Assembly (NCBI GenBank): GCA_003024785.1
Contig: PUQB01000033.1
Location: 713,170-777,169 of the forward strand
Reading direction: 5' to 3'
DNA: 64,000 nt
DNA from: Selaginella tamariscina
Taxonomy: Eukaryota > Streptophyta > Lycopodiopsida > Selaginellales > Selaginellaceae
The notes under the pieces were generated by a model. It saw nothing but the letters and a program-made list of their open reading frames with translations, had not been told where the DNA came from and ran no database searches. Both the position numbers and the translations under genes were made by a program. Shown here piece by piece: positions 2,606 to 63,520 of this stretch (within the stretch, counting starts at the first letter, position 1; each line of letters opens with the position of its first letter).

Positions 2606-5600
2606 CTAAATGAACTGGTACATGAGGAGCATTTGCTACTAAACCACCAGTTGGACCAAAGAGTGCACAGGAGAAATCCAGCCGTTCTTTTATATTTGTC
2701 GAGATAGAGGTTCTTTGTAGAGTCCTTCCCATTTGCTCCGCAATCCCCATAAACCTATGTATATAATTGTGTTATATGTATGTGTTGTTGTGTGTGTGTA
2801 AGTATGTGTATGTCATAAATACGTACACTGTCGCATATATGTAATGGCATGTTATACAGGTATATGGGGTGTGTACACAAATATATAGTCTTGCATTAAT
2901 ACATATATACATATATATGTCAGATACCTGTTATTGAAAATAGACAATTGTACGACGTCCGATTCAGTACCGACTTTGAATCCAATACGTTCATATCCAA
3001 CCTCAATACGAATGTTCCCGTACATTGTGACAGATGCCTTGCTACAGGTTCAACCACAATCGTACTGTTACCGTTCATGATGATTGACGGACGTGAATTT
3101 CGTGTCCGTACCCAAGCGCTTCCAGACGGTACACCTCGGTTTCGTACCACCTTGACACACAAGGTACACATTAGACGTGTTTATACACATACACATACGT
3201 GCACACATAGAAATACATGTGCTATTCTTGGTCAATCTATACATAATTCCATGTATATTTACCACGCACACACAACAAACGATGCACAAATTATAACTCC
3301 CACACATCATATATTCATATCCATAACTTGCTGCACATATAAAAATGTACATATATATTAGATAAAGCGACACATGAAACATATAGAAGTTTAGGATAGT
3401 TTAATATAAACACAACATACACGCTCATACACACACAGACGCATATATGTATCACATGTGTGTACAACCTTGTTCCAAAGAAGACTTGTCGATTAGAAAG
3501 ACTCAGAAGGAGGCTCTGTACCGGTTGCTTTATCAAGTACGACGGGCTTTAGAATATCCGTTATACCCGTCCACGTACTCGTACATCAGTTATCAACACA
3601 GACCTGTATAACACCAATGAGTATAAAAGAAGCATGGACGTATATATAGACACATACAGATAAGTATGTATCCCTGGAAAATGCAGATAATAACTAATAG
3701 CTAGCTTATCTACACATATATATTCTATTAGTATTATATGTATATCTTGAGACGAATAACTACACATACACACACACACGCAACACACACCTGTTTTGAA
3801 GCTCAAAACCATACTCTCTTTGAAATTCTTTTAATAGCTCTGCAAAAGTCCTTATCTTCGGGCTCCCCAACCATGATCCCCGTATCTGTGCCTTCATAAC
3901 GTAGATTCAAAAAACACCTCTGTTTAATACTCTCGTCCTTAAAAATTCTGTAACTTAAGCTGCAAACCACAACATTATGTATATAAGAATAATATACCAT
4001 AACACGTGCAACATACTAAGAGATATACACATAATGTATACAACACAATACAATATAACAATGCATATATACAGTGTATATCAGGCTTACATTTTCTTTG
4101 ACGGCATGAGAGAGTTTTTCCGCTCTCTTCCAAACTTCTGGCATAACATCTGGACCGTAAGATGCCGAGTACGGCTCTTGCGCTTCTTCAATGACGTCAG
4201 CAAGCCCAAGTCCGTACGCAGATTAATATTCCACAGTATCTATAAAGAACAGCCGTAACCATTACACAGACATATGCGCATGCACACATATTGGTTTGAG
4301 TACCTATGAACAATGACTTCACGAACACCAAGAGCTTTAGCGATGGCACAAGCATGTTGTGGGCCTGCTCCTCCAAAGCATGCTAATGTATGCTGACCAG
4401 TTTCGTACCTGGTATATGATATATAAGTTATGTGTATAGTCATGTGCTTATGTCTATATGTATGTGTATGAGTATTACCCCTTCATCTCCGTGAGTTCGC
4501 GAATTGGTCTACACATTGCCCTCGTTTGCCGTCAAGGAATCCCAATGCTACTTGCTCAATGCTCATCTCTTGAGCAGACTCATCCATCGTCCTGTAAATT
4601 AAACATTCACACACACCATATATCTACGTAAATATAGGAGTTATACACAACCTTAAGAGTTGGAAGACGTTAATAATACTGCTATAGTTATATAAATTAT
4701 ATATCATATAAATATGAGTGCGTATATATACTATACGTGTATACATATTCACATTAAAGAAAGAGTCAAACTGTTTTCACATATTGAATACTGATTAGTT
4801 GATTAGTGAGTTTATAGCAAGTTTACCTCCGGTAAGCGTTAACCTCGTTAGCCAGGGTTTGAAATGCTTGTCTTGCAGCTTCAAGATCCAACGGCTCGTT
4901 TTCACTGGGACCAAAGATCGACGGGAAATAATCCGGTATAACCCTTCCCAGTACCAAGTTTGCATCCGTCACAGCTAACTCACCACCTAAATCACATATA
5001 ATTTAAATTATTAAATTATGGCACTGAGGACGGTGCATGGCTCCAAAAGGTTACGCGTTATATACCAATATATTATTTATTTGATTACTATTAAAAATTA
5101 TTAGTAGTCAAAAACATTATTTATTAATTACCTTTTCTATAACACACAGGCCCAGGATGAGCACCAACAGACTCAGGACCAACTTTAAACACACCTACTT
5201 GAAACTTGAGTTTTGAACCTCCCCAGCAGCTACAGTGTTTATATCGAGCTGTGGAGCCTGTACAAAAACATTATTACATATTCATACATAAACACACACA
5301 TAAATACATAACAGGTTACTGAATATGTGTATAGTTTCATTATAAGTATGTGCTCCTTTTCTTGAGGCTTGAAGCATCATCTTCACTGGAAATACATATA
5401 ACTAGAAGTATTAAATATACGTATACATAAAAAAACATACATATTAATAGTACTTGTTAGTGTTTAGAATAAACTAAAATATGCATTACCTGGATTATAA
5501 CACCTGCTGTTTCCGTTTCGAGAACTTGTTCATACTTTCCAGCATATCTACATATATGTTAGATACAACATACCACATACACACAGGCACGCACGCGCGC

Positions 5601-8244: not shown

Positions 8245-9167
8245 CTGTGGGTTTTGTACTGCCCTAAAAAGAGCATGTTCTTAAATGGCATTATTCTTAT
8301 ATATAGAAATATATATATATTAAAATGAAATATAATACTTTTAAAATTATACACTGATAAAATAAGAATAAGAATATCCACAGAGATACTTTTAAATTTT
8401 AAATTAGTACATTATTAATAAAATTAATAAAGGTTTAAACAAAACTCTTTGTTTAAATTGCCGTTGATATATATACAAATCTTCTCCTGATTCACCTGAA
8501 AAAACAAATTCGGATATAAATACACACACCAACACACACACACACACACATGATACACATACATACATACATACATACAAACATGTGTCGATGTGTATGC
8601 ATGTAAACACCGTATAATAATTGCTGCTCAGTTAAAGTATATCAGCACATAGGATTAGTATATCCTGTTCAGTCCTGTTGAGCTTGATTAATTTTAGATT
8701 CATCAATGCAGCATATTGCACACACACACGCAAAAAATACACTATATATCTCTATGAAGCATAACACACACACACACACAAACATTACAACAAATACTTA
8801 CATATATGCATGATATGTGTGTGTGTGTGTGTATAGCTGCTCGGATCAGCGGGGTATCAACATATGGATTTCATAAAACCCAGCTCAGTCCTGTTGAGCT
8901 TGAAGATTTTCAGATTTCGTCATGGCAGCATTGTCAATAACAAACATTAATGGTAATATAGAGATGCAGTTTAACCTGGATCTCCCAATTAGAAATATAT
9001 ATATATATAGGAAGACAAGCTGATATCATCTCTATTTATTTCTGAGTTATTTCAGCCACCTGTCTCACTTGTTGAAAACAGACGGATAGTTTAACTCATC
9101 CTACAAATGTGCATAGACATTCATAAACGTAATTGTATGTGCGTATGCGTGTAAATTTCAAATCACC
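8245..9167. other. Intergenic spacer with an imperfect direct repeat
   Basis: This is the spacer between OXP1 and the next minus-strand gene. I see CA/GT and GTAT microsatellites. Two related blocks at about 8639-8713 and 8842-8934 share the segment CAGTCCTGTTGAGCTTGA and a flanking GATTTC/GGCAGCAT-like context. A short minus-strand open frame (GESGEDLYIYQRQFKQ, about 8450-8500) has no recognisable family and I do not call it a gene. Confidence 0.6.
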
Positions 9168-39030: not shown

Positions 39031-40602
39031 TCAATTAGAGAAATCCCAGACATGTAAACCAGAATCTGCAACACAAGCTGCAAGGAACGAGTCATTCGCG
39101 ACAAGGTCGTAGACATCGTCGTTCAATCGCTCCTGCAATGAATAGAGATGCTCACCCGATCGGACATCCCAGGCATTAACGCTACCGGAGATGCACAAGA
39201 ACAGCTGCCTGGAGTTCAGTGTGCCGAACATCTGCATCTGGTTATCTCCTCCGTGTCTCACTTCGGACACTCCCTCCATATCCGGCACACTCCGCACCCT
39301 CGCTAGTCCGTTATACGATGCACTCAGCAGGTTGTTCCCATGAACATCTACTGCTTCCACTGCATTCTGCTCGGCCCTCTCGGCGACCACTGGCAAACCA
39401 TCAATTCCGACTTCGTGAACTGAGATCCTCGACCTTGTTGCAGTAACCAGAAAGCCGTTCCGAGAGAATCTAACACGGCCAATCTGCCCGGCTTGCTCTA
39501 CAAACGATTGCCATCCCCGCATTGCATCGGAATCCATCGCATCTCCGCCAGTGTAAACAATCTCTCTAGAGACTGAATCCCATACACGAAATGATCTACC
39601 CGGACTGCCTGCATAGAGACCGATCCACCATCTGGAGCTCCCAGCAAAACTGATCAATGCACCATCCTCGATTATGTTCCCGACGTGCACCAAGGTGGGA
39701 CTCTGAGAAGACCGCACACTCCCAGTGAAGACACTTCCATCGAGAGAAGCGAACACCACTTGCTCGTCCTGGAGAGAAACCCCAGCTATGGCTCTCGAGA
39801 ACGCTCCGAATCGATCCTCACGTCTGGGTCTCATTGTTCTCACACATGCTTTCGTGTCGAGATCGAAAACTCTCACTGCCCCATCGAAGAATCCTCCTGC
39901 AAGATGGTTTCTGGATATCGCAAGGCATCGGCAGGCGTTGTTGTTGTTGTTGTTCGATGCACCTCCTTCGTATGATAGAACTGTGTGTCTCGCTCGACCT
40001 CGAGAAATGTTTGCTGCTGTTGAATGCGCTCGTATGTATTCTTCCCTCCAGGAACTGATGGGCTGCTGCAGTTCAGCCCATACAAGATTGTACGCACTCT
40101 CCCACAGCAATTCAGAGCGGGATATCAATCTCCATGTAGTGCAGACCTGAATTCAAATGCCAGTTTGAGAATTCACATCGGACAATGCAGGTTGCAGTAC
40201 CTGGAAAATGCAGGCGAGTGTGCGAGCTGCAGCAAGAGGGCCTTGAGGCGATGATCGCAATGAAGAAGCCGCAGCCCTCAAGGCAATGGCTTCGACCACG
40301 GATTCAGGAACCTGCGCCACGGCTAGACGTGCTTCCAAGCTCAGGCGCCTCGGAGTACTTCCTTCACCGGACCATCGCGATGTCTGTTCCTCCGCAGCCA
40401 CTGGATCATCCGGCTGCAGTCCCTGTGAGAAATCTTCACCTGCAGTTAGTGAGATTTCTGGATCGATCACTTGGCGGCGGGGAGACGAAGAATGTACAGG
40501 AGCACCTCGTTCTTGTTCGTGGGTGTCAATAGGGAGAGGAGGTGAAATGCTAGTCGTTGGATTGACACGAGGGACAGCTGCCTCCTCGTCACCGGCCTCC
40601 AT
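39031..40602 (-). CDS. SAP: STERILE APETALA-like WD40 protein
   Basis: In Arabidopsis, SAP is an F-box-like WD40 adaptor of an SCF ubiquitin ligase that targets PPD-type repressors and controls organ size and flower development. Exon 1 (about 40202-40602) has a disordered N-terminus, then ALRAAASSLRSSPQGPLAAA. One small intron leads to VCTTWRLISRSELLWESAY, matching the SAP F-box-like helix. The propeller follows uninterrupted: HLAGGFFDGAVRVFDLDTKA (about 39860-39905), RPRREDRFGAFSRAIAGVSL, SSRWWIGLYAGSPGRSFRVW (about 39580-39640) and finally SGLHVWDFSN with TGA at 39031. About 500 residues, similar to SAP. No frame break is seen, unlike most neighbours. The ATG at 40602 is the first in frame; a GTG lies two codons upstream. 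Confidence 0.88.
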
Positions 40603-43952: not shown

Positions 43953-45706
43953 TCACACTCTAATGGCTTGGTTTATCTGGTCGGCATGGTGAGGACAATA
44001 ATACGCTTCTGGAACTCGAGCCTTGTTGTTGCAAGGGTCCCCTCTCACTGTTATTCCGGAACACGTTTTGACTTCACCCTTCACCACTGTTGCCGGTTCT
44101 TTCAAGTCCAGGAGATTATCGAAGACTTCAAGACAAGCATGCACATCACCTAGTTTTTTAAAACGCAAATCTGACTTGGGCACATCGTTCAGCTGGACGG
44201 AGTGAGGCATAATGTAGTAGAACTCTTCCTTTACTGCCGTCCACCGCTTGCTAGGAAGAACCATTTCCTTCCAAACTTTGTGGGACTCCTTCTTGGACTT
44301 CGATTTCCACTGAGCGACGGTGATCTGCATTGCTATAATGTGAAGCTCATTTCCAACCAGTTTGACGTAGATCACGTCCACTGCTTGCTCGTTGAAAGCC
44401 AGTGGACCAAACAGAACGCCTTGTGCAAGCTCGTGGGTCTTCAGCTTGTTAAGAGCAGCTACCTCTGAGCCGTGTGCGTATGTCCTGAAATGCTTGAATG
44501 CACATCCGAAGACGCTCTTCTGATACCTCATGACGGCTATGACCAAGGCCTCGACGTTCCAACCGATCCGGGCAGGGTTTCGGTTTTTCACCTCTGCTTC
44601 AGTGTCGACAATAACAGCCTGAACCCAACCTTCAATGTCATCGAACAGCAGGGAGCTTTGCAGCTTCTCATGTTGGTTCATAATGTACAGTTCCGCCTGA
44701 CTGCGTAAGTGGGGCTCAGAGGACGAAAGAAGGCCAACACCATTCATCATCTCCTCCTTATAGAAGCAAGTGAAATCCACGAGACCAGGTCCCAGCTCGT
44801 GACTGAGCTCTCCCCAGTCACCAGCCAGGGCACCACGAAGTTGCTCTTGCGTCGTCAGCAGGCCAATAAATCTTGAACAGCTTATGCGTATACACGCCTC
44901 TGATCTTCCTTCGAAGAGCTTCTCATTCCCCTTACATTCCTCATAAAACTGAGAAGTGAGGAATCCCCCGGTTAAACGATCTACATGCTGTAGCTGTTCT
45001 ACCGTCAGTCTCGACTGTGCCACCCACGTTTCCATCTCGCAGCTAGTGTAAGGACCATCGAAGAATTCTGTTTGTATCCACTCGTCAGCCTTGTCACTCT
45101 CCGACCAAATCTGTCTTTCCCGGCTATTAACGGATGACAGCATTACGAGCTTGTGAGTGAAAGCCCAGAGGTCAAGGCTGCAGGAGAAACCTTGTTCGCA
45201 TCGAACTGGTCCCAGTCATCCACGACAAACAATAAGGACCCCCTTTTCTGCTGGCAACACCACGACTCAAGTTCATCCATAGAAGTCATTGAGGCGAGCG
45301 AAGAATCGCCAGATGCCACGAGCAAGGCTTCCTTGAGGACCAAAACAGGTTTTGCAACGTAGCTCAGCACGGAGATATAAACTACGCTCATTGTCTGAGA
45401 GCCAATGAGGTAGCCCGAGATGGTGCATACCACTGTGCTCTTCCCAGTACCTTTGGCACCTAAAACCTGCATACGTTGCCCGGCTGCCATGCTCGTCATC
45501 GCATCATACAGCCGCTCTGCACCCTCCCTTCCTACGTACCTGTATTGAGCTTTGAGGTTTAACAAATTCATCGTAGGCCGGAGAAGATCCCACACTCGAC
45601 ATGGATCCCACAGGAAGCTTGGATCTCGCCCATAATACAAACTCGCAAGAGCATCGCGGAGAGCCGCAGGGCTTGATTCCTCAAGCGCCTCGGCGCCACG
45701 CTTCAT
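43953..45706 (-). CDS. CRN/RHS-like P-loop ATPase with zinc-ligand tail, intronless
   Basis: The reading frame is intronless apart from one 1-bp break near 45164-45166. From the ATG at 45706 (MKRGAEALEESSPAALRDAL) a region with LKAQYRYVGREGAERLY leads to Walker A VLGAKGTGKSTVVC (about 45445-45480). Walker B follows as LLFVVDDWDQFD (about 45210-45245). After the break comes FTHKLVMLSSVNSR, a sensor-like strand. A central domain follows (NVEALVIAVMRYQKSVFGC; VDVIYVKLVGNELHIIAMQ), where QIT after a beta strand recalls the restriction-like fold of CRN/RHS proteins. The C-terminus has CSGITVRGDPCNNKA and YYCPHH, a C-C-C-H zinc ligand set. The architecture resembles Crinkler/RHS-type NTPases known from oomycetes, trypanosomes and some fungi and plants. 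Role unknown; family assignment is by motif order only. Confidence 0.6.
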
Positions 45707-46125
45707 TGTCGCACAAACCCTACAACAGAGCTGAAGAACCCTACAAACAGGGGATTGGAACACTAATTTAATTTTAAAACAGGGGATTAGAACCCTAATT
45801 TAATGTGCGGCCCATCAAGGGCATTAAGGGTATTGGAAACCTATATGTGTAATTAAGGTATGGATATTCTTGATGGGATATTCTAGCATCTCAATTTTAG
45901 GGTTCTTGCGGCTTCGCGTTGCTTCGCCGAGGGAATTGGCGGAACCAGTTGCCGCCATTTCGATCACGGTATGAAATTCAAATCGAGCACTCTGCTGGTG
46001 AGAAAAATGTGTAGATTGATGTTCTTAAAGAAAATGCGCAGGAAATAGAGATTGGGAAAAATTTTGAGTCGGGAATCTGATTTATACGTGTCCATTCCGG
46101 GATTTCTAGTGCTGTTTTAGGTATA
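45707..46125. promoter_or_regulatory. Divergent promoter region, CRN/RHS-like gene and DA2-like
   Basis: Telo-boxes lie at about 45715-45725, 45738-45743 and 45810-45817 toward the minus gene (CCCTA forms), and at about 45896-45905 toward the plus gene (TTTAGGGTTC). A GCTTCGCG-TTGCTTCGCC repeat follows at about 45910. Confidence 0.5.
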
Positions 46126-56008: not shown

Positions 56009-56013
56009 ATTAT

Positions 56014-56493
56014 TGTCAAGCCACGATCCAGGAACCAGGAAGCGAGTAGGATTCCGGGAACAGGAAGGCTTGACTCAGGAACAGGACCGAGAGCAGGACA
56101 GGAACCAGGAACAGGAACAGGAACAGGACGAATCCAGGAGCAGGACAGGAGCAGGAGGCAAAGAGTAAGACAAGAACAAGACAGAAGAGCAAGGAACAAG
56201 AATAATCATAGAATGACTGGTGTTGATAGTAACTGATTGTACAACAATTAGGTCGGAGCTTTTATGCTCACAACTCCAAGCTAATCTAGTCATGAGTCTA
56301 ATCTAGTCATGAGTTAAGAATAGTGTCCCTTATCCTCTAGGCATATCCTGTAGCATATCCTCTAGGCATATCCTATAGGAATATCCTATAGGCATATCCT
56401 GCAGGCATATCCTGTAACCCGTATCCTGTATCCGAAATCCTGCATCCTGTATCCTGTATCCGGAAACCTGTATCCTGCATCGGGTTGTTGACA
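56014..56493 (-). repeat. 3' LTR of the chromovirus
   Basis: 480 bp, about 95% alike to the other LTR by eye, with differences mostly single-base or 3-bp indels. It holds GGAACAGGAACAGG repeats in U5 and TATCCTGTAG/AGGCATATCC repeats in U3. A TATA-like CATAAAAG (minus strand, 56259-56266) lies 31 bp upstream of CAGTTACTATCAA (minus strand, 56223-56235). Confidence 0.93.
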
Positions 56494-56506
56494 GCACCTC
56501 CTCTCT
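56494..56506 (-). other. Polypurine tract adjoining the 3' LTR
   Basis: In element sense the bases just before the 3' LTR read TTAGAGAGGAGGTGC, a purine-rich stretch suited to plus-strand priming. Confidence 0.6.
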
Positions 56507-59500
56507 AAGGACGAGTTCCACGAGTCTTGGGACCTGGTTTAGCAGGATAATGCCGATGGAAGGCAGCAACTTTGGAAGAAGCATGGAGTAAGTTGGATGC
56601 AGGTTCCCAAGTGCGATCGGTAGGCAAATAACCTTTCCAATCCACCAAGTATTGAAGTTGGCGGCGATGAAGACGAGAATCAAGGATGGCTGCAACTTCG
56701 TACTCAGGTTCACCAGCAATGACCACAGGAGGGGGAGGAGAAGAAGCACGACCAGGAAGAGAAGAAGGATGATACGGCTCCAACAAGGAGGTGTGAAACA
56801 CAGGATGAAGTTTCACCGTGGATGGTAACTCGAGTCGGAAAGCTACAGGATTTACCTCCGCCACGATCCTGTAAGGGCCCAATCGTTGAAAATCCAACTT
56901 AGAAGAAGGCCTGTTGGTGCGAATGTGTCGACGAAGAAGCCACACGAGATCACCAATCTTGTATGCAGGTGCCGGCTGACGGTGAGCATCAGCATGATGC
57001 TTGTACCGTTCCTGTGCCTGCTGAAGATGAACCTGGAGATCATCCTGTACCTGACGAAGATGCTGAGACGATCCTGTACTGCAGGAGCGGAAGAAGGAGA
57101 AGCAGGAGAGCAAAGTCAAAACGTGGATGGTGGCCTGTAAGAGCAAAGAAAGGTGTCTGGCCTGTAGATGCGTGAATGGAGTTGTTGTAGGCAAACTCCG
57201 CCATAGGAAGAAGGTCCAACCAATTATCCTGTTGGTAACTGATGAAGCAACGAAGATATTGCTCCAAGGTCTGATTGTGCGTTCTGACTGTCCATCAGTT
57301 TGCGGGTGATATCCTGAAGAAAGATCCGCTTTAACCTGTAGACTCCGAAGAAGCTCTCGCCAAAACTTGGACATGAATTGTGGACCTCGATCGGAAACAA
57401 TGCTCTCAGGAAGACCATGATGTCGGAACACCTCACGGATCACCAACTCGGCAGTTGTCTGACCTGTAGCTGTCTTGTTGCAGGGTAGGAAATGAGCCTG
57501 CTTGGTGAAACGGTCAACCACCACAAGAACTGCATCGAATCCACGAGAAGGAGGAAGATCTGTGAGGAAATCCATAGAAATGGATCTCCAAGGAGCAGAA
57601 GGAACAGGAAGAGGACGAAGAAGACCAGAAGGTGCATGACGAGGCATCTTCGACCTGTTGCAGGTGTCACAACTCCGTACAAACCTTTCCACAAAACCCG
57701 CAACCCAGGCCACCAATAGTTGCGAGTCACCAACTCAACTGTCTTGGCCACACCAAAATGTCCTGTAGCCGGGGTATCATGACAATCCTGTACCACACGA
57801 GTCCTGCAAACACCAACAGGAACGTACAGGAGACCTTCCGGTACAGGAGTCCATCCTGTATGGTGAACAGGTTGTAGTCTGGACGGGAACTGGAGGAAGA
57901 GGAACTTGCAACGTCAGGATGAATGTGTGAGAACACATTCTTTGCCAAGTCGTCTGTAGCCAACTGCGAACGGACGTCCTGTAGGAGTGTTGAATTTGCT
58001 GGAGCCTGATGAACCTGCAGTGCCGCAAGCCGGAATCGATCAGGACCCAACAACACTTGCCTTTGACAGTCAAATGCAGGATCGCCCGGGCTTGGTGCAA
58101 GGTAAGAGCGCCTAGACAATGCGTCCGCCTTGCCATTCCGAAAACCGGGCCTGTAGACGATGACGAAGTCAAAACGTGATAGGAACTCCGCCCACCTAGC
58201 CTGTCGCCGACTGAGAACTCGAGCCGTTTGAAAGTACTCCAGGTTCTTGTGATCCGTAAGAACTTGTACAGGATGTGCAGCACCTTCCAGGAAATGCCGC
58301 CACTCCTCAAACGAATCCACAATGGCCTTGAGTTCCTTGTCATGAATCTCGTAATTGATCTCCGCCGACAGGAACTTACGAGAGTGAAAAGCTACAGGAT
58401 GAAGCAACTTGTCCTCTCCAACTTGCGATAGGACGGATCCTACTGCAAAATCCGAGGCATCTGCTTCAACGAAGAAAGGACGAGAAGGATCAGGATGTGC
58501 TAAAATCGGAGCTGTCGTGAAGGTGTCCTTGAGTGTTGTGAATGCATGTTCCGCCTTGTCGGACCAAGAGAAAACCTCTGTGCGCTTGGTGAGTTCCGTG
58601 AGTGGAAGTACACGCTTGGAGAAGTCCTGTATGAATCGCCTGTAGAAGTTTGCAAAGCCAAGGAAACATTGTACATCTCGTACAGACTTGGGCCTCTCCC
58701 ACTCCACGATGGTCTTCACCTTGTGCATGTCCATGGAAACGCCAGCAGGAGAGACGATGTAGCCCAAGAACTCCACAGAATCCCTATCGAAAAAACACTT
58801 CTCCAACTTCGCATACAGCCATGCTCACGAAGCCGCTGTAGAACCAACCGTACATGCTTGTCATGTGCCGCCTGGTCCTTGGAGAAAATCAAAATGTCGT
58901 CGAGGTAGATCACCACAAACTGGTCCAAGAAGTCACGAAAGATGTCGTTCACCATGTGTTGGAACACGGCTGGGGCATTGGTAAGGCCGAAAGGCATCAC
59001 CGTGTACTCGAAGTGTCCATACCTTGTACGAAAGGCAGTCTTCCACTCATCGCCGGGACGAATCCGTACAAGGTTGTAGGCCCCTCGTAAGTCGATCTTC
59101 GTGAACACCTTTGCTCCTCGCAGCCGATCGAGAAGTTCCGGGATCAATGGCAACGGGTACCGATTCCGAATGGTAGCTTGATTCAAACCCCTGTAGTCCA
59201 CAACCAAACGTAAGCTCCCATCCTTCTTCTTGACAAAGAAGATTGGCGCTCCTGCAGGGGACTTTGAGTGACGAATGAAGCCGGATGCCAAGTTGTCCTC
59301 GATGTACTGGCGAAGAACCTCCAACTCTGTGGGTGACAATGCGTAAATCGGTCCGAACGGTGGGTCTTTCCTTCTGCAAGATCAATAGGACAGTCGTAGG
59401 ACCTGTGAACAGGAAGAACTGTAGCCTTGTGCTTGTCAAAAACGTCCTTAAAGTCGTGGTACTTGGATGGTAGAGAAGAAGGAGGAGAAGGAGAAGGAGT

Positions 59501-60485
59501 AGCGAAGGAGATTGAAAAACAGGAGAGTCAGACACAGGAAAGGTAGAAGAGGACGTAGGAGTTACTTGAAAGGCAAAAAGGTGGAAAGGAGCAGGATCAG
59601 TGGTAAGTTCATGCATGGTAGTGGTAAGAACTCGGAGAGGAGCAGGAGGGAGCTGTGACTGAAAAAGAGGAAGGATCTTGGGGGTGGAACAGAGCAGAGT
59701 AACAAAAGAGGCAGGATTGGAGAAACCTGTGTGGATGTTGACGAGTGTACAGGATTGGAAGAATCCTGTACAGAAGTCCGTGGTTGCACAGGAGTGAGGA
59801 AGCCTGTGAGTGTGCTGACGAACCAACAGGAGGTGGATCCTGTTGAGGAGGAACCTTCGACACTGATACAGGATTGGAAGAACCCTGTACAGGAACCGCA
59901 AACTTACAGGAGTGGAGAGACCTGCGGATGTGCTGAGGAACTGACATGAGGTGAATCCTGTCGAGGAGGAGTCTTCAACACTGGTACAGGAACAGGCACG
60001 GTCAATCCTGTAGCTTGTACTGCCTCAGACACCAAGGATGTATCCTGCACGCAGGAAGGTACAGGATTGATCCTGGCTGCTGGAGAGGAAAACGTGAGCG
60101 TCCTAGACCTCCAGTCGATCTGCGGATTTGCAACAACGAACCATGGCATGCCAAAAATGATGGGAGTCGACCGAGTCTTGATCAAGTTGAAGGAAATCGA
60201 ACAGTTGAATGCACCATGACTGCAAGAGAGAGGTGTGGTAGCGTGGGTAACTGCGCCAGAAGCAATCAAACGACCATCGGCCACCTCTACAGGAACTGCA
60301 CGCTTCAACTTCACCACCGGAATGCCATGCTGAGCTGCAAAAGTGTCATCCATGAAACATGCATTTGCACCAGTGTCTAACAGGGCAAACTCCTTGAGCT
60401 CTCGATTATTGAGGCGAATGTGTACAGGAAACTTGAGTGATGGAATGGTATGAGCAGCACCAATGGAGCCTGCACCTACGTCCAA
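56505..60485 (-). CDS. pol: Chromovirus pol polyprotein (frame-broken)
   Basis: Domains in order on the minus strand. Protease with [15 protein letters not shown] (about 60360-60405). Reverse transcriptase 58830-59339, with [19 protein letters not shown] and catalytic [11 protein letters not shown] (about 58880-58915). RNase H starting [14 protein letters not shown] (about 58420-58460). Integrase with zinc-binding region ending CDTCNRSK (about 57650-57675) and catalytic D, D, E within [18 protein letters not shown] and TDGQSERT (about 57300-57580). GPY/F-like [10 protein letters not shown] (about 56860). Chromodomain [20 protein letters not shown] then DWKGY and TWEP (about 56590-56700). At least three frame breaks occur, near 57720, 58822 and 59340. 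A proline-, serine- and valine-rich spacer with repeated GGATT(C)CTGTAC units lies between protease and reverse transcriptase. Confidence 0.9.
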
Positions 60486-60499
60486 CTTCGCGGCTCCTA

Positions 60500-61472
60500 G
60501 ACGAAGTGGACATTGAAGTTTTCCGACTGAACTTCAGCTTCGGCTTCACGCGTCTTGAACTTCCTGGCTTTATTAGGACATTCCGCCACCTTGTGTCCTG
60601 CTGCACCACAATACAAGCATAGGTTCTCACCCGTCGACGTTGCTTCTCAGCAGTTGAAAGTGGGCCACGCTTGGATTGTTAACCTCCATAGGAACTGCTC
60701 CAGAAGGTGTCGTAGGAACATGTGCTACGGCTACAGGATTGGCTGGCAGGAACTGCTGACGGAATTTTTCCTGACGGCGCTCGAACAAACGGTTGTCGCA
60801 GCGAACGGCCTGTTGCATGATCTCCGCTAACGTTTGAGCATCCGGTAACGTAAGGAGAAGGTCCTTCACGTCATCCCTCAGCCCAAAACGGAAAGTGTTC
60901 GATCAATGCAGTCTCGTCCCATGGAATGTTCGTGCACAATTGCTGGAATTCGGATGCATAAACGGAAGCTGGTCTGGATCCTTGTGTGAGCCTCCGTAAC
61001 TTGTGCATGCAGAACGGTACTTATCAGGATCTCCAAAGCAGGCTTCAAAGGCAGCCACGAAACCTTCAAAGTCTTCCATCAATGGGTCGTCACGCTCCAG
61101 CAAGGGAGCAACCCAAGCTCGTGGAGATCCACTTAGTAAGGATGCCAAAAGGCCAACCTTTTGTGCATCCGTCGAGTAGCGGCGTGGTTGCATGCGGATC
61201 AAGAGCCGGATCTGATTCAGGAAACCTTGGAAATCGGCACGGTTGCCACTGAACTTCTCTGGCATGCTGATCTTCGGCTCCGGAGAAAAGTTCGATGAAG
61301 AAGGAACCACCGATGCCTGAGAGAGAGCCTGCGCAGCAGCCTTGGAGGATGCATCAGCAGCTGCATGTGCCGCATGGGTGGAGCCTTGCAGATCGGTGAC
61401 CACTTGGCGCAAAGTGGCCAGCTCATGAAGCAACATTTGGTGCTCGCGTTGAAAGTGCTCAAAATCAGCCAT
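60500..61472 (-). CDS. gag: Chromovirus gag protein (frame-broken)
   Basis: The start MADFEHFQREHQMLLHELAT is at 61472. A coiled region is followed by the retrotransposon gag core, PKISMPEKFSGNRADFQGFL and SPRAWVAPLLERDDPLM. After a frame change near 61000 comes a CCHC zinc knuckle CLYCGAAGHKVAEC (about 60571-60612), then a basic tail. Gag and pol frames are displaced, but some of that displacement may be sequence error. Confidence 0.85.
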
Positions 61473-61556
61473 GATCTATGAAAGAAAGAAAGGAGAAAAA
61501 CGAAGGAAAAGAATCAAGGAAAAAAAAAGTAGCTAGGAAACGAAGAGCTATGAAAG

Positions 61557-61569
61557 CAGTTACTATCAA
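61557..61569 (-). other. Presumed self-priming primer-binding site
   Basis: In element sense this reads TTGATAGTAACTG, 2 nt inside the 5' LTR end. It is the exact reverse complement of CAGTTACTATCAA in the LTR about 31 bp after the TATA-like box. It does not match the initiator-methionine tRNA primer complement (TGGTATCAGAGC) used by plant Ty3 elements. Confidence 0.7.
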
Positions 61570-61571
61570 AC

Positions 61572-62031
61572 TGTCAAGCCACGATCCAGGAACCAGGAAG
61601 CGAGTAGGATTCCGGAACAGGAAGGCTTGACTCAGGAACAGGACGAGAGCAGGACAGGAACAGGAACAGGAACAGGAACAGGACGGATCCAGGAGAGGAC
61701 AGGAGCAGGAGGCAAAGAGTAAGACAAGAACAAGACAAGACAAGGAACAAGAATAATCGTAGAATGACTGGTGTTGATAACTGATTGTACAACAATTAGG
61801 TCGGAGCTTTTATGCTCACAACTCCAAGCTAATCTAGTCATGAGCTAAGAATAGTGTCCCTTATCCTCTAGGTATATCCTGTAGCATATCCTAGGCATAT
61901 CCTATAGGAATATCCTATAGGATATCCTGTAGGAATATCCTGCAGGCATATCCTGTAACCCGTATCCTGTATCCGAAATCCTGCATCCTGTATCTGTATC
62001 CGGAACCTGTATCCTGCATCGGGTTGTGACA
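61572..62031 (-). repeat. 5' LTR of the chromovirus
   Basis: 460 bp, starting and ending with the TGTCA/TGACA pair. Relative to the 3' LTR it lacks several single bases and three bases (GTA) within the self-priming segment at about 61775-61784. Confidence 0.92.
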
Positions 62032-62036
62032 ATTAT

Positions 62037-62781: not shown

Positions 62782-63520
62782 TGTCACGACCCAATACAGG
62801 ATACAGGATTCCGGATATAGGATACAGAATATAGGATATGCCTGCAGAATATTCCTACAGGATATACCTATATGATATTCCTAGAGGATATGCCTACAGG
62901 ATATTCCTACAAAGATATACTACAGGATATGCCTAGAGGATAAGGGACATGTGGACTCGTTTTAGCCTCCGCATGCATATAGCCACTTTTAGATGCATGT
63001 AACCACTTTTAACACTCATGCCTAGATTAGCTCTTGGAGTTATGAATATAAAAGCTCCGACTTAATTGTTGTAACAATCAGTTACTATTAACACCAGTCT
63101 TTCTATGATCAATCTTGTCTTGTCTTGTTCTTATCTTGCTCCTTATTTCCTGTTCTCTCCTTGTCTCGCTCCTGGATCCTGTCCTGCTCCTGTCTCACTC
63201 ATGGATCTTGTCCTGCTCCTATCTTGCTCCTGGATCCTGTCCTACTCATGACTCCTGAGTTCCTGGTTCCTGTCATGTTCCTTGTCCTACTCTTGAGTTC
63301 CTAGTTCATGTCCTGCTCCTTGTCCTACTCATGAGTTCCTAGTTCCTGTCATGCTCCTTGTCCTGCTCCTGAGTTCTTAATTCCTGTCCTGCTCCTAAGT
63401 TCCTAATTCCTGTCCTGCTCCCGTCATACTCCTTGTCCTACTCTTTGTCCTGCTCCTGAGTTAAGCTTCCTTGTTTTCGGAGTCCTGCTCATTTCCTTGT
63501 TCCTGGATCGTGGCATGACA
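62782..63520 (+). mobile_element. Solo LTR of the same chromovirus family, opposite orientation
   Basis: It runs TGTCACGACCC to GGCATGACA, with GGCCAC duplicated on both sides (62776-62781 and 63521-63526). TATAAAAG at 63047-63054 is followed 32 bp later by CAGTTACTATTAA (63079-63091). It is longer than the other LTRs because U5 holds an expanded CCTGCTCCTGAGTTCCT(G/A) array (about 63120-63500). No internal element sequence is attached. Confidence 0.88.

Follow-up and report, generated by a model that had tools for sequence, protein, structure and literature searches.

A chromovirus family of a lycophyte-like genome that very probably primes reverse transcription with the 5′ end of its own RNA

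The window analysed here, a stretch of 64,000 nucleotides from the Selaginella tamariscina contig PUQB01000033.1, carries a long terminal repeat (LTR) retrotransposon on its minus strand. We consider it very probable that this element belongs to a Ty3/Gypsy chromovirus family, located on the Tf1/sushi/Tcn1 side of the group and residing in a lycophyte-like genome, and that the family self-primes. The case is built from sequence, namely the sites themselves, their complementarity, conservation, and joint change, the predicted folding, and protein relationships. Such a mechanism has already been predicted for elements of the Tcn1 clade; what is new is this family and the strength of its sequence evidence. 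An initial annotation had proposed self-priming for the interval 56223-61571, which is only the inner part of an element that spans 56014-62031 (Table 1). The proposal stands for the family, on the grounds of conservation across the genome, joint change in six primer types, and 14 leader folds, but not for the window copy, which is broken at its 5′ LTR.

The 13-nucleotide word TTGATAGTAACTG at positions 61557-61569 is, as first reported, the exact complement of CAGTTACTATCAA at 56223-56235 in the 3′ LTR; both words are unique on the plus strand of the window. Of 2,635 25-mers taken at random from parts of the window beyond the element, 2 gave a match of at least 11 nucleotides with the 3′ LTR, and one of these reached 13. 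The distance between the TATA-like box and the motif is 31 in the 3′ LTR and 32 in a solo LTR of a diverged relative, both as originally given. The solo LTR also retains the described layout, with CAGTTACTATTAA at 63079 carrying one change that is compatible with G-U pairing. The primer-binding site was said to adjoin the 5′ LTR; it is close by, but two nucleotides (GT) lie in between.

Across the assembly that was searched (300.7 Mb in 1,391 contigs), CAGTTACTATCAA occurs at 4,950 sites (2,482 + 2,468), and the reversed pattern, serving as a control, at 8 (7 + 1). Among 100 listed places there are 21 opposite-strand neighbours no more than 500 bp apart, at distances of 157-391 bp. All 21 stand in the (+,-) order, which is that expected for the repeat (R) region and the primer-binding site, and none stands in the reversed order. 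Leaders were examined from three sources: 40 were picked by gag match alone, from listed copies of 83-92% identity (7,527 first-look candidates, 150 of them scored); 20 were taken from the listed places of a site variant (the first 20 among 65); and 20 came from young gag copies that were picked for their absence from the site-variant list. Both sites were readable in 70 of the 80 leaders (34/40 gag-chosen, 17/20 variant-chosen, and 19/20 young). The ten that were dropped (L052, L065, L072, L075, L078, L081, L090, L096, L103, and L119) all carry the site, and R was seen in three of them, L075, L103 with an inserted base, and L119 with a 12-nucleotide core.

Counted from the cut, positions 1-12 are paired in 65-70 of the 70 copies, while the outermost position 13 is paired in 50. 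All 12 positions are paired in 60 copies, comprising 28/34 gag-chosen, 15/17 variant-chosen, and 17/19 young leaders. Because pairing is kept at positions 1-12 but not at position 13, the data suggest a primer of 12 nucleotides, and we rejected the annotated length of 13, which is exact in the window but exceeds the conserved core by one. From this edge of conservation, we infer that the RNA begins at the A after C and that the primer is AGUUACUAUCAA. The match is thus kept in other genomic copies. A predicted RNA start also follows from the 12-nucleotide primer, and the family makes a mechanism defined in yeast open to testing in a plant.

Joint change of R and site is apparent within the genome. 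Among the 34 gag-chosen copies, which alone were picked blind to the sites, an R T accompanies a site A in 30 copies and a site T in none, whereas an R A accompanies a site A in one and a site T in three. The corresponding counts are 47, 0, 2, and 3 with the young copies added (52 scored), and 47, 2, 2, and 18 when the variant-chosen copies are added as well (69 scored; Fisher p 2e-12, uncorrected for kinship). L118 was left unscored because a base is missing in its site. In L079, a change of C to T in R is matched by G to A in the site. Four copies (L061, L112, L095, and L098) show a mixed state at position 6, with new R and old site or the reverse, and these are possibly recombinants or intermediates.

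Fourteen relatives (L001-L014) were obtained from prokaryote assemblies carrying eukaryote contigs. They are filed as prokaryote metagenome-assembled genomes (MAGs), yet contigs with such retrotransposons must be eukaryotic. Eight of them, from a Trichormus MAG, resemble fern sequence, with Azolla, we presume, as the probable source. The LTR-end junction pattern TGACAG.TTG was sought in all 14 with one mismatch allowed, and junctions were found in eight (L001-L006, L008, and L013). In seven of these eight, the site is complementary over 11-12 nucleotides to one place in the contig. Four further matches to the junction pattern (one in L001, two in L003, and one in L007) had no complementary match of at least 7 nucleotides. 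L001-L004 and L008 were first spotted by their match, so the sample is not fully blind; L006 and L013 were found via the junction. One additional locus, L129, was fetched by the motif behind the primer and shows 11-nucleotide pairing. As a tag for more families, AACACCAGTT was listed at 46 places in three contaminated MAG genomes, and 20 of these were fetched: one gave the 11-nucleotide site match of L129, one a 7-nucleotide match, and 18 none.

Six primer types are represented when the window is included, and the last 11 nucleotides of each are GTTACTATCAA, CTCTTGATCAA, AGTCTCGACAA, AAGGCGAACAA (four loci), AAGGTGAACAA, and TTACTTGGTAA. Across these types, R fits its own site in 66 of 66 pairs, and the true pairing is alone among 720 in fitting so well, the next best reaching 64. 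L003 and L004 are one compensated pair apart. A 2-nucleotide spacer (GT, GC, or GA) precedes the site in the window and also in every one of the eight perfectly matching relatives.

Other features of R and U3 were noted in the same loci. The block CACCAGT directly follows the primer in R of the window, L001, L003, L004, and L129, and CACAAGT does so in L006 and L008. This post-primer block is kept although the primers differ, and it is not present in L002 or L013. The folding models indicate that it may pair with the LTR end, and a helix continuing past the primer in this way can explain its occurrence behind the primer in six of eight relatives. Judged by eye, an extra primer-site-like arm lies between the TATA-like box and the predicted start in U3 of L003, L004, L006, L008, L129, and the 3′ end of L005, and an imperfect one in L002. 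Together with the primer it makes up an inverted repeat some 8-12 bp long, and in L004 it shows the same change as the primer and site. By eye, no such arm was seen in the window element or in L001.

Leaders of eight genome copies and six relatives, all chosen for holding the match, were folded from the start of R to 45 nucleotides beyond the 13-nucleotide site. Pairing of primer with site is predicted in 14 of 14, with mean probabilities of 0.92-0.96. The upstream duplex, between post-primer R and the LTR end, is better than in mononucleotide-shuffled sequence in six of eight leaders (p ≤ 0.06).

The family most likely self-primes in the manner of Tf1, by the following proposed steps. Transcription would start at the A of CAGTT, about 32 nucleotides downstream of the TATA-like box, to yield an RNA beginning with the primer given above. 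Its first 12 nucleotides would fold back onto UUGAUAGUAACU, two bases past the 5′ LTR, while the bases of R that come next would extend the helix with the LTR end and hold the primer in place. The ribonuclease H (RNase H) of the element would cut after ...CAA and before CACCAG, and its reverse transcriptase (RT) would extend the freed 12-mer. As in the general plus-strand strong-stop scheme, the plus strand that copies the attached primer would then write a new primer-binding site from R sequence. With the site rewritten from the primer, the two would stay matched, and concerted change would follow.

Several observations weigh against self-priming or limit its reach, beginning with the window copy. 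The annotated match to the LTR applies to the 3′ LTR, while in the 5′ LTR the primer segment, CAGTTATCAA, is 3 bp short and its longest match to the site is 6 nucleotides. As a result of this loss, the copy's own leader no longer folds the primer onto the site (predicted probability of at most 0.03), and the copy itself has probably lost the ability to self-prime. Elsewhere in the genome, position 6 is mismatched in 5 of the 70 copies, and other single mismatches also occur. Among the eight junction relatives, L005 pairs over only 7 of 11 nucleotides. As regards the three-duplex structure of the Tf1 type, the upstream duplex misses p ≤ 0.06 in two of eight leaders, and the duplex downstream of the site reaches p ≤ 0.05 in two of eight and is no better than shuffled sequence in the other six. 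The full Tf1 ‘pretzel’ is, on these models, only partly supported. Finally, 17 of the 69 copies scored for joint change were chosen by their site, and a leader tree built without the motifs shows only two independent pairs of change on supported branches, or five on the best tree. Joint change within the genome therefore appears to be mostly inherited, with kinship explaining much of the table, and we did not retain the idea that it reflects many independent events.

Three other explanations for the complementarity were considered. It could act in the packaging, dimerisation, or translational control of the leader RNA, while priming takes place elsewhere, and the stability of the predicted folds and the run of the helix past the primer would suit such a role. 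However, pairing drops exactly at the predicted 5′ end base of the RNA, and in the window, as in all eight perfect-match relatives, the site stands two nucleotides away from the LTR end. Priming demands that place and that limit, which count against another leader role, and we regard this alternative as highly improbable.

Priming by a tRNA or tRNA half, with the LTR match incidental, has a chance that we put as very slim. The site starts GTTTGATAG and thus lacks TGG, the complement of the tRNA CCA end. Host tRNA genes were sampled from 15,756 first-look candidates, of which 63 were scored, 62 listed, and 60 fetched; these 60 are for Asn, Ile, Arg, Lys, and Cys, with one lacking an amino-acid call and none for Met. 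The best complement at the site is 9/13 at offset 3, and the longest run to any of the 60 is 6 nucleotides, when random 20-mers give at least 7 in 309 of 500 trials. No tRNA genes were found in 23 fetched genome stretches. We found tRNA priming, and with it the tRNA-complementary site that could have overturned the initial annotation, to be unsupported by this Met-free sample. In favour of this alternative, a Met half-molecule would fall outside the sample, and tRNA-Met is the primer that plant elements use most often and the one on which most plant chromoviruses rely (PMC6317226; here and below, published work is cited from the parts of its text available). Even so, a tRNA primer would leave the joint differences of site and LTR among the six primer types unexplained. 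Chance, or one ancestral accident that was amplified, can be dismissed almost outright, for although most copies in the genome are close kin with largely inherited joint changes, random trials rarely reach 11 nucleotides (2/2,635), the genome holds 4,950 sites against 8 for the control, and each of the six primer types (two of which differ by a single change) has its best fit with its own site.

Protein relationships were examined together with the family's host. A single-exon homologue of STERILE APETALA at 39031-40128 has its best matches, among 18, in Selaginella moellendorffii (56%) and Diphasiastrum (52%). Judged from this gene, the host is a land plant nearest to lycophytes, in agreement with the annotated plant genome. 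The chromovirus identity is likewise borne out by the integrase, SH3_Tf2-1 domain, and chromodomain of the element, whose domains run in the order RT, RNase H, integrase, and chromodomain on the minus strand, although the open reading frames (ORFs) are spread over several frames with the frame broken between them. Aligned to CDY-type chromodomains, the aromatic positions Y, W, and Y are kept, which we take to be the residues of the aromatic cage. Trees were built from 28 hand-picked proteins and 14 loci, of which 37 rows were long enough for RT (5 dropped) and 41 for RNase H (2 dropped). A Rhizoctonia protein annotated as Tf2 is the sole named reference of the Tf1/sushi/Tcn1 kind, and the seed-plant rows are without clade names. 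In both trees, the window element adjoins the fern-like loci on the fungal and vertebrate side. The seed-plant rows are set apart by a split at 100/99 in the RT tree, where streptophyte algae join them, and at 99/93 in the RNase H tree, where Chara does. Resolution of the branching order among fungi and vertebrates is poor. By these trees, the element is on the Tf1/sushi/Tcn1 side, away from seed-plant chromoviruses. Two scans of viral contigs gave no relatives.

Vertebrate sushi-type elements resemble this family in that their RT and RNase H fall on its side of the split, and in a gag with DUF4939, a domain of sushi-derived vertebrate genes. They differ in host, and the vertebrate rows, none of which is a named sushi element, group by themselves. 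Tf1 of fission yeast likewise has a chromodomain integrase and a primer formed by the first RNA bases, which are complementary to a site close to the 5′ LTR (PMC7175516, PMC10085805); here, by contrast, the primer would have 12 nucleotides, and one of the two flanking duplexes known from the Tf1 ‘pretzel’ (PMC10085805) is weak. Seed-plant chromoviruses (Tekay, Reina, CRM, and Galadriel) share the domain order and a plant host, but they split off in the trees and are tRNA-primed as a rule (PMC6317226). The initial annotation is right in general to regard a tRNA as the normal primer of plant chromoviruses, with the Tcn1 clade of mosses and clubmosses already named as an exception (PMC6317226). 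The TAR lineage of Ty1/copia (Houba, Osr-1) offers another plant group for which self-priming is predicted, although it is of another superfamily and has no chromodomain (PMC6317226).

The closest described elements are those of the Tcn1 clade. According to the 2019 survey, plant Tcn1 elements were found only in moss and clubmoss and group with Tf1/sushi; most have no tRNA site, and the majority are predicted to be self-primed (PMC6317226). The same survey links the aromatic cage to the chromoviruses found in algae, mosses, and clubmosses (PMC6317226). The window element matches plant Tcn1 traits in its non-seed plant host and its chromodomain with aromatic Y, W, and Y. With the clade, including SM-Tcn1 of S. 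moellendorffii, it shares a lycophyte host, chromovirus identity, a TG...CA LTR, a T-rich leader, and an aromatic-cage chromodomain (PMC6317226, PMC2864245). The LTR of SM-Tcn1 is 440 bp, compared with 460-480 bp here (PMC2864245). For SM-Tcn1, the available text of the 2010 report gives evidence for neither tRNA nor self-priming, in contrast to the primer, site, and joint change of the present family, a comparison made by description (PMC2864245). The 2010 and 2019 papers thus differ on how the clade primes (PMC2864245, PMC6317226), and a genome with thousands of sites adds sequence evidence for self-priming. The primer and site design of the present family also appears in contaminant contigs that resemble fern sequence. 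The 2010 study obtained no Tcn1-like clones from ferns by PCR (PMC2864245). Within the available text of the open-licence literature, we found no plant in which experiments prove self-priming.

A more speculative possibility, which we hold only tentatively and think rather unlikely, is that primer and site act as a lineage tag that copies itself and drifts freely. One change in R would update both sites, because a new site would be written from the primer in each cycle. Families would then drift to primers that do not match one another, of which six types are seen, and may not prime one another. A third arm, in U3, changes along in one fern-like group, and on this reading the primer would be under an additional control.

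Table 1. Features of the retrotransposon and of the neighbouring solo LTR, in window coordinates
Feature	Position	Strand	Remarks
LTR retrotransposon, full element	56014-62031	minus	LTRs and ATAAT duplication at flanks
Target-site duplication, 3′ side of element	56009..56013	.	plus-strand ATTAT at both flanks
Target-site duplication, 5′ side of element	62032..62036	.	ATAAT in element sense
3′ LTR, 480 bp, TGTCA...TGACA	56014..56493	minus	
Proposed 12-nucleotide self-primer AGTTACTATCAA, start of R in 3′ LTR; 13-mer extends to 56235	56223..56234	minus	exact complement of primer site; 12-nucleotide limit from 70 copies
TATA-like box ATAAAAG of 3′ LTR, 31 bp upstream of motif	56259..56265	minus	
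Polypurine tract AGAGAGGAGG directly before 3′ LTR	56497..56506	minus	direct reading
ORF, integrase core + SH3_Tf2-1 domain + chromodomain	56505..57716	minus	Pfam domains; chromodomain aligned to CDY-type
ORF with RNase H domain	57727..58806	minus	
ORF with RT domain	58716..59339	minus	
ORF with aspartyl-protease-like domain	59904..60485	minus	
gag ORF, DUF4939, weaker Ty3 capsid match	60903..61472	minus	
Primer-binding site TTGATAGTAACT; 13-mer match starts at 61557	61558..61569	minus	
Spacer GT, 2 nucleotides, LTR end to primer-binding site	61570..61571	minus	2-nucleotide spacer likewise in eight relatives
5′ LTR, 460 bp, likewise ending TGACA	61572..62031	minus	
Self-primer segment of 5′ LTR, 3 bp short, CAGTTATCAA	61774..61783	minus	
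Solo LTR of diverged relative	62782..63520	plus	GGCCAC at both flanks
Solo LTR box TATAAAAG	63047..63054	plus	
Solo LTR primer segment CAGTTACTATTAA	63079..63091	plus	one change, G-U compatible

The two LTRs of the element differ by 7 substitutions and 12 gap events over 448 aligned columns. Given a Kimura two-parameter (K2P) divergence of only 0.016, the insertion appears fairly young. The small gaps are numerous, and assembly error may be part of their cause.

Two features elsewhere in the window were also recorded. Positions 8954-9077 match the plant H/ACA small nucleolar RNA snoR97 (50.4 bits, E 0.00014). At 43953-45763 there are two adjoining ORFs of 396 and 206 amino acids, the first without a Pfam match and the second with a sub-threshold match only; the 396-residue product is presumably Crinkler-like in appearance.

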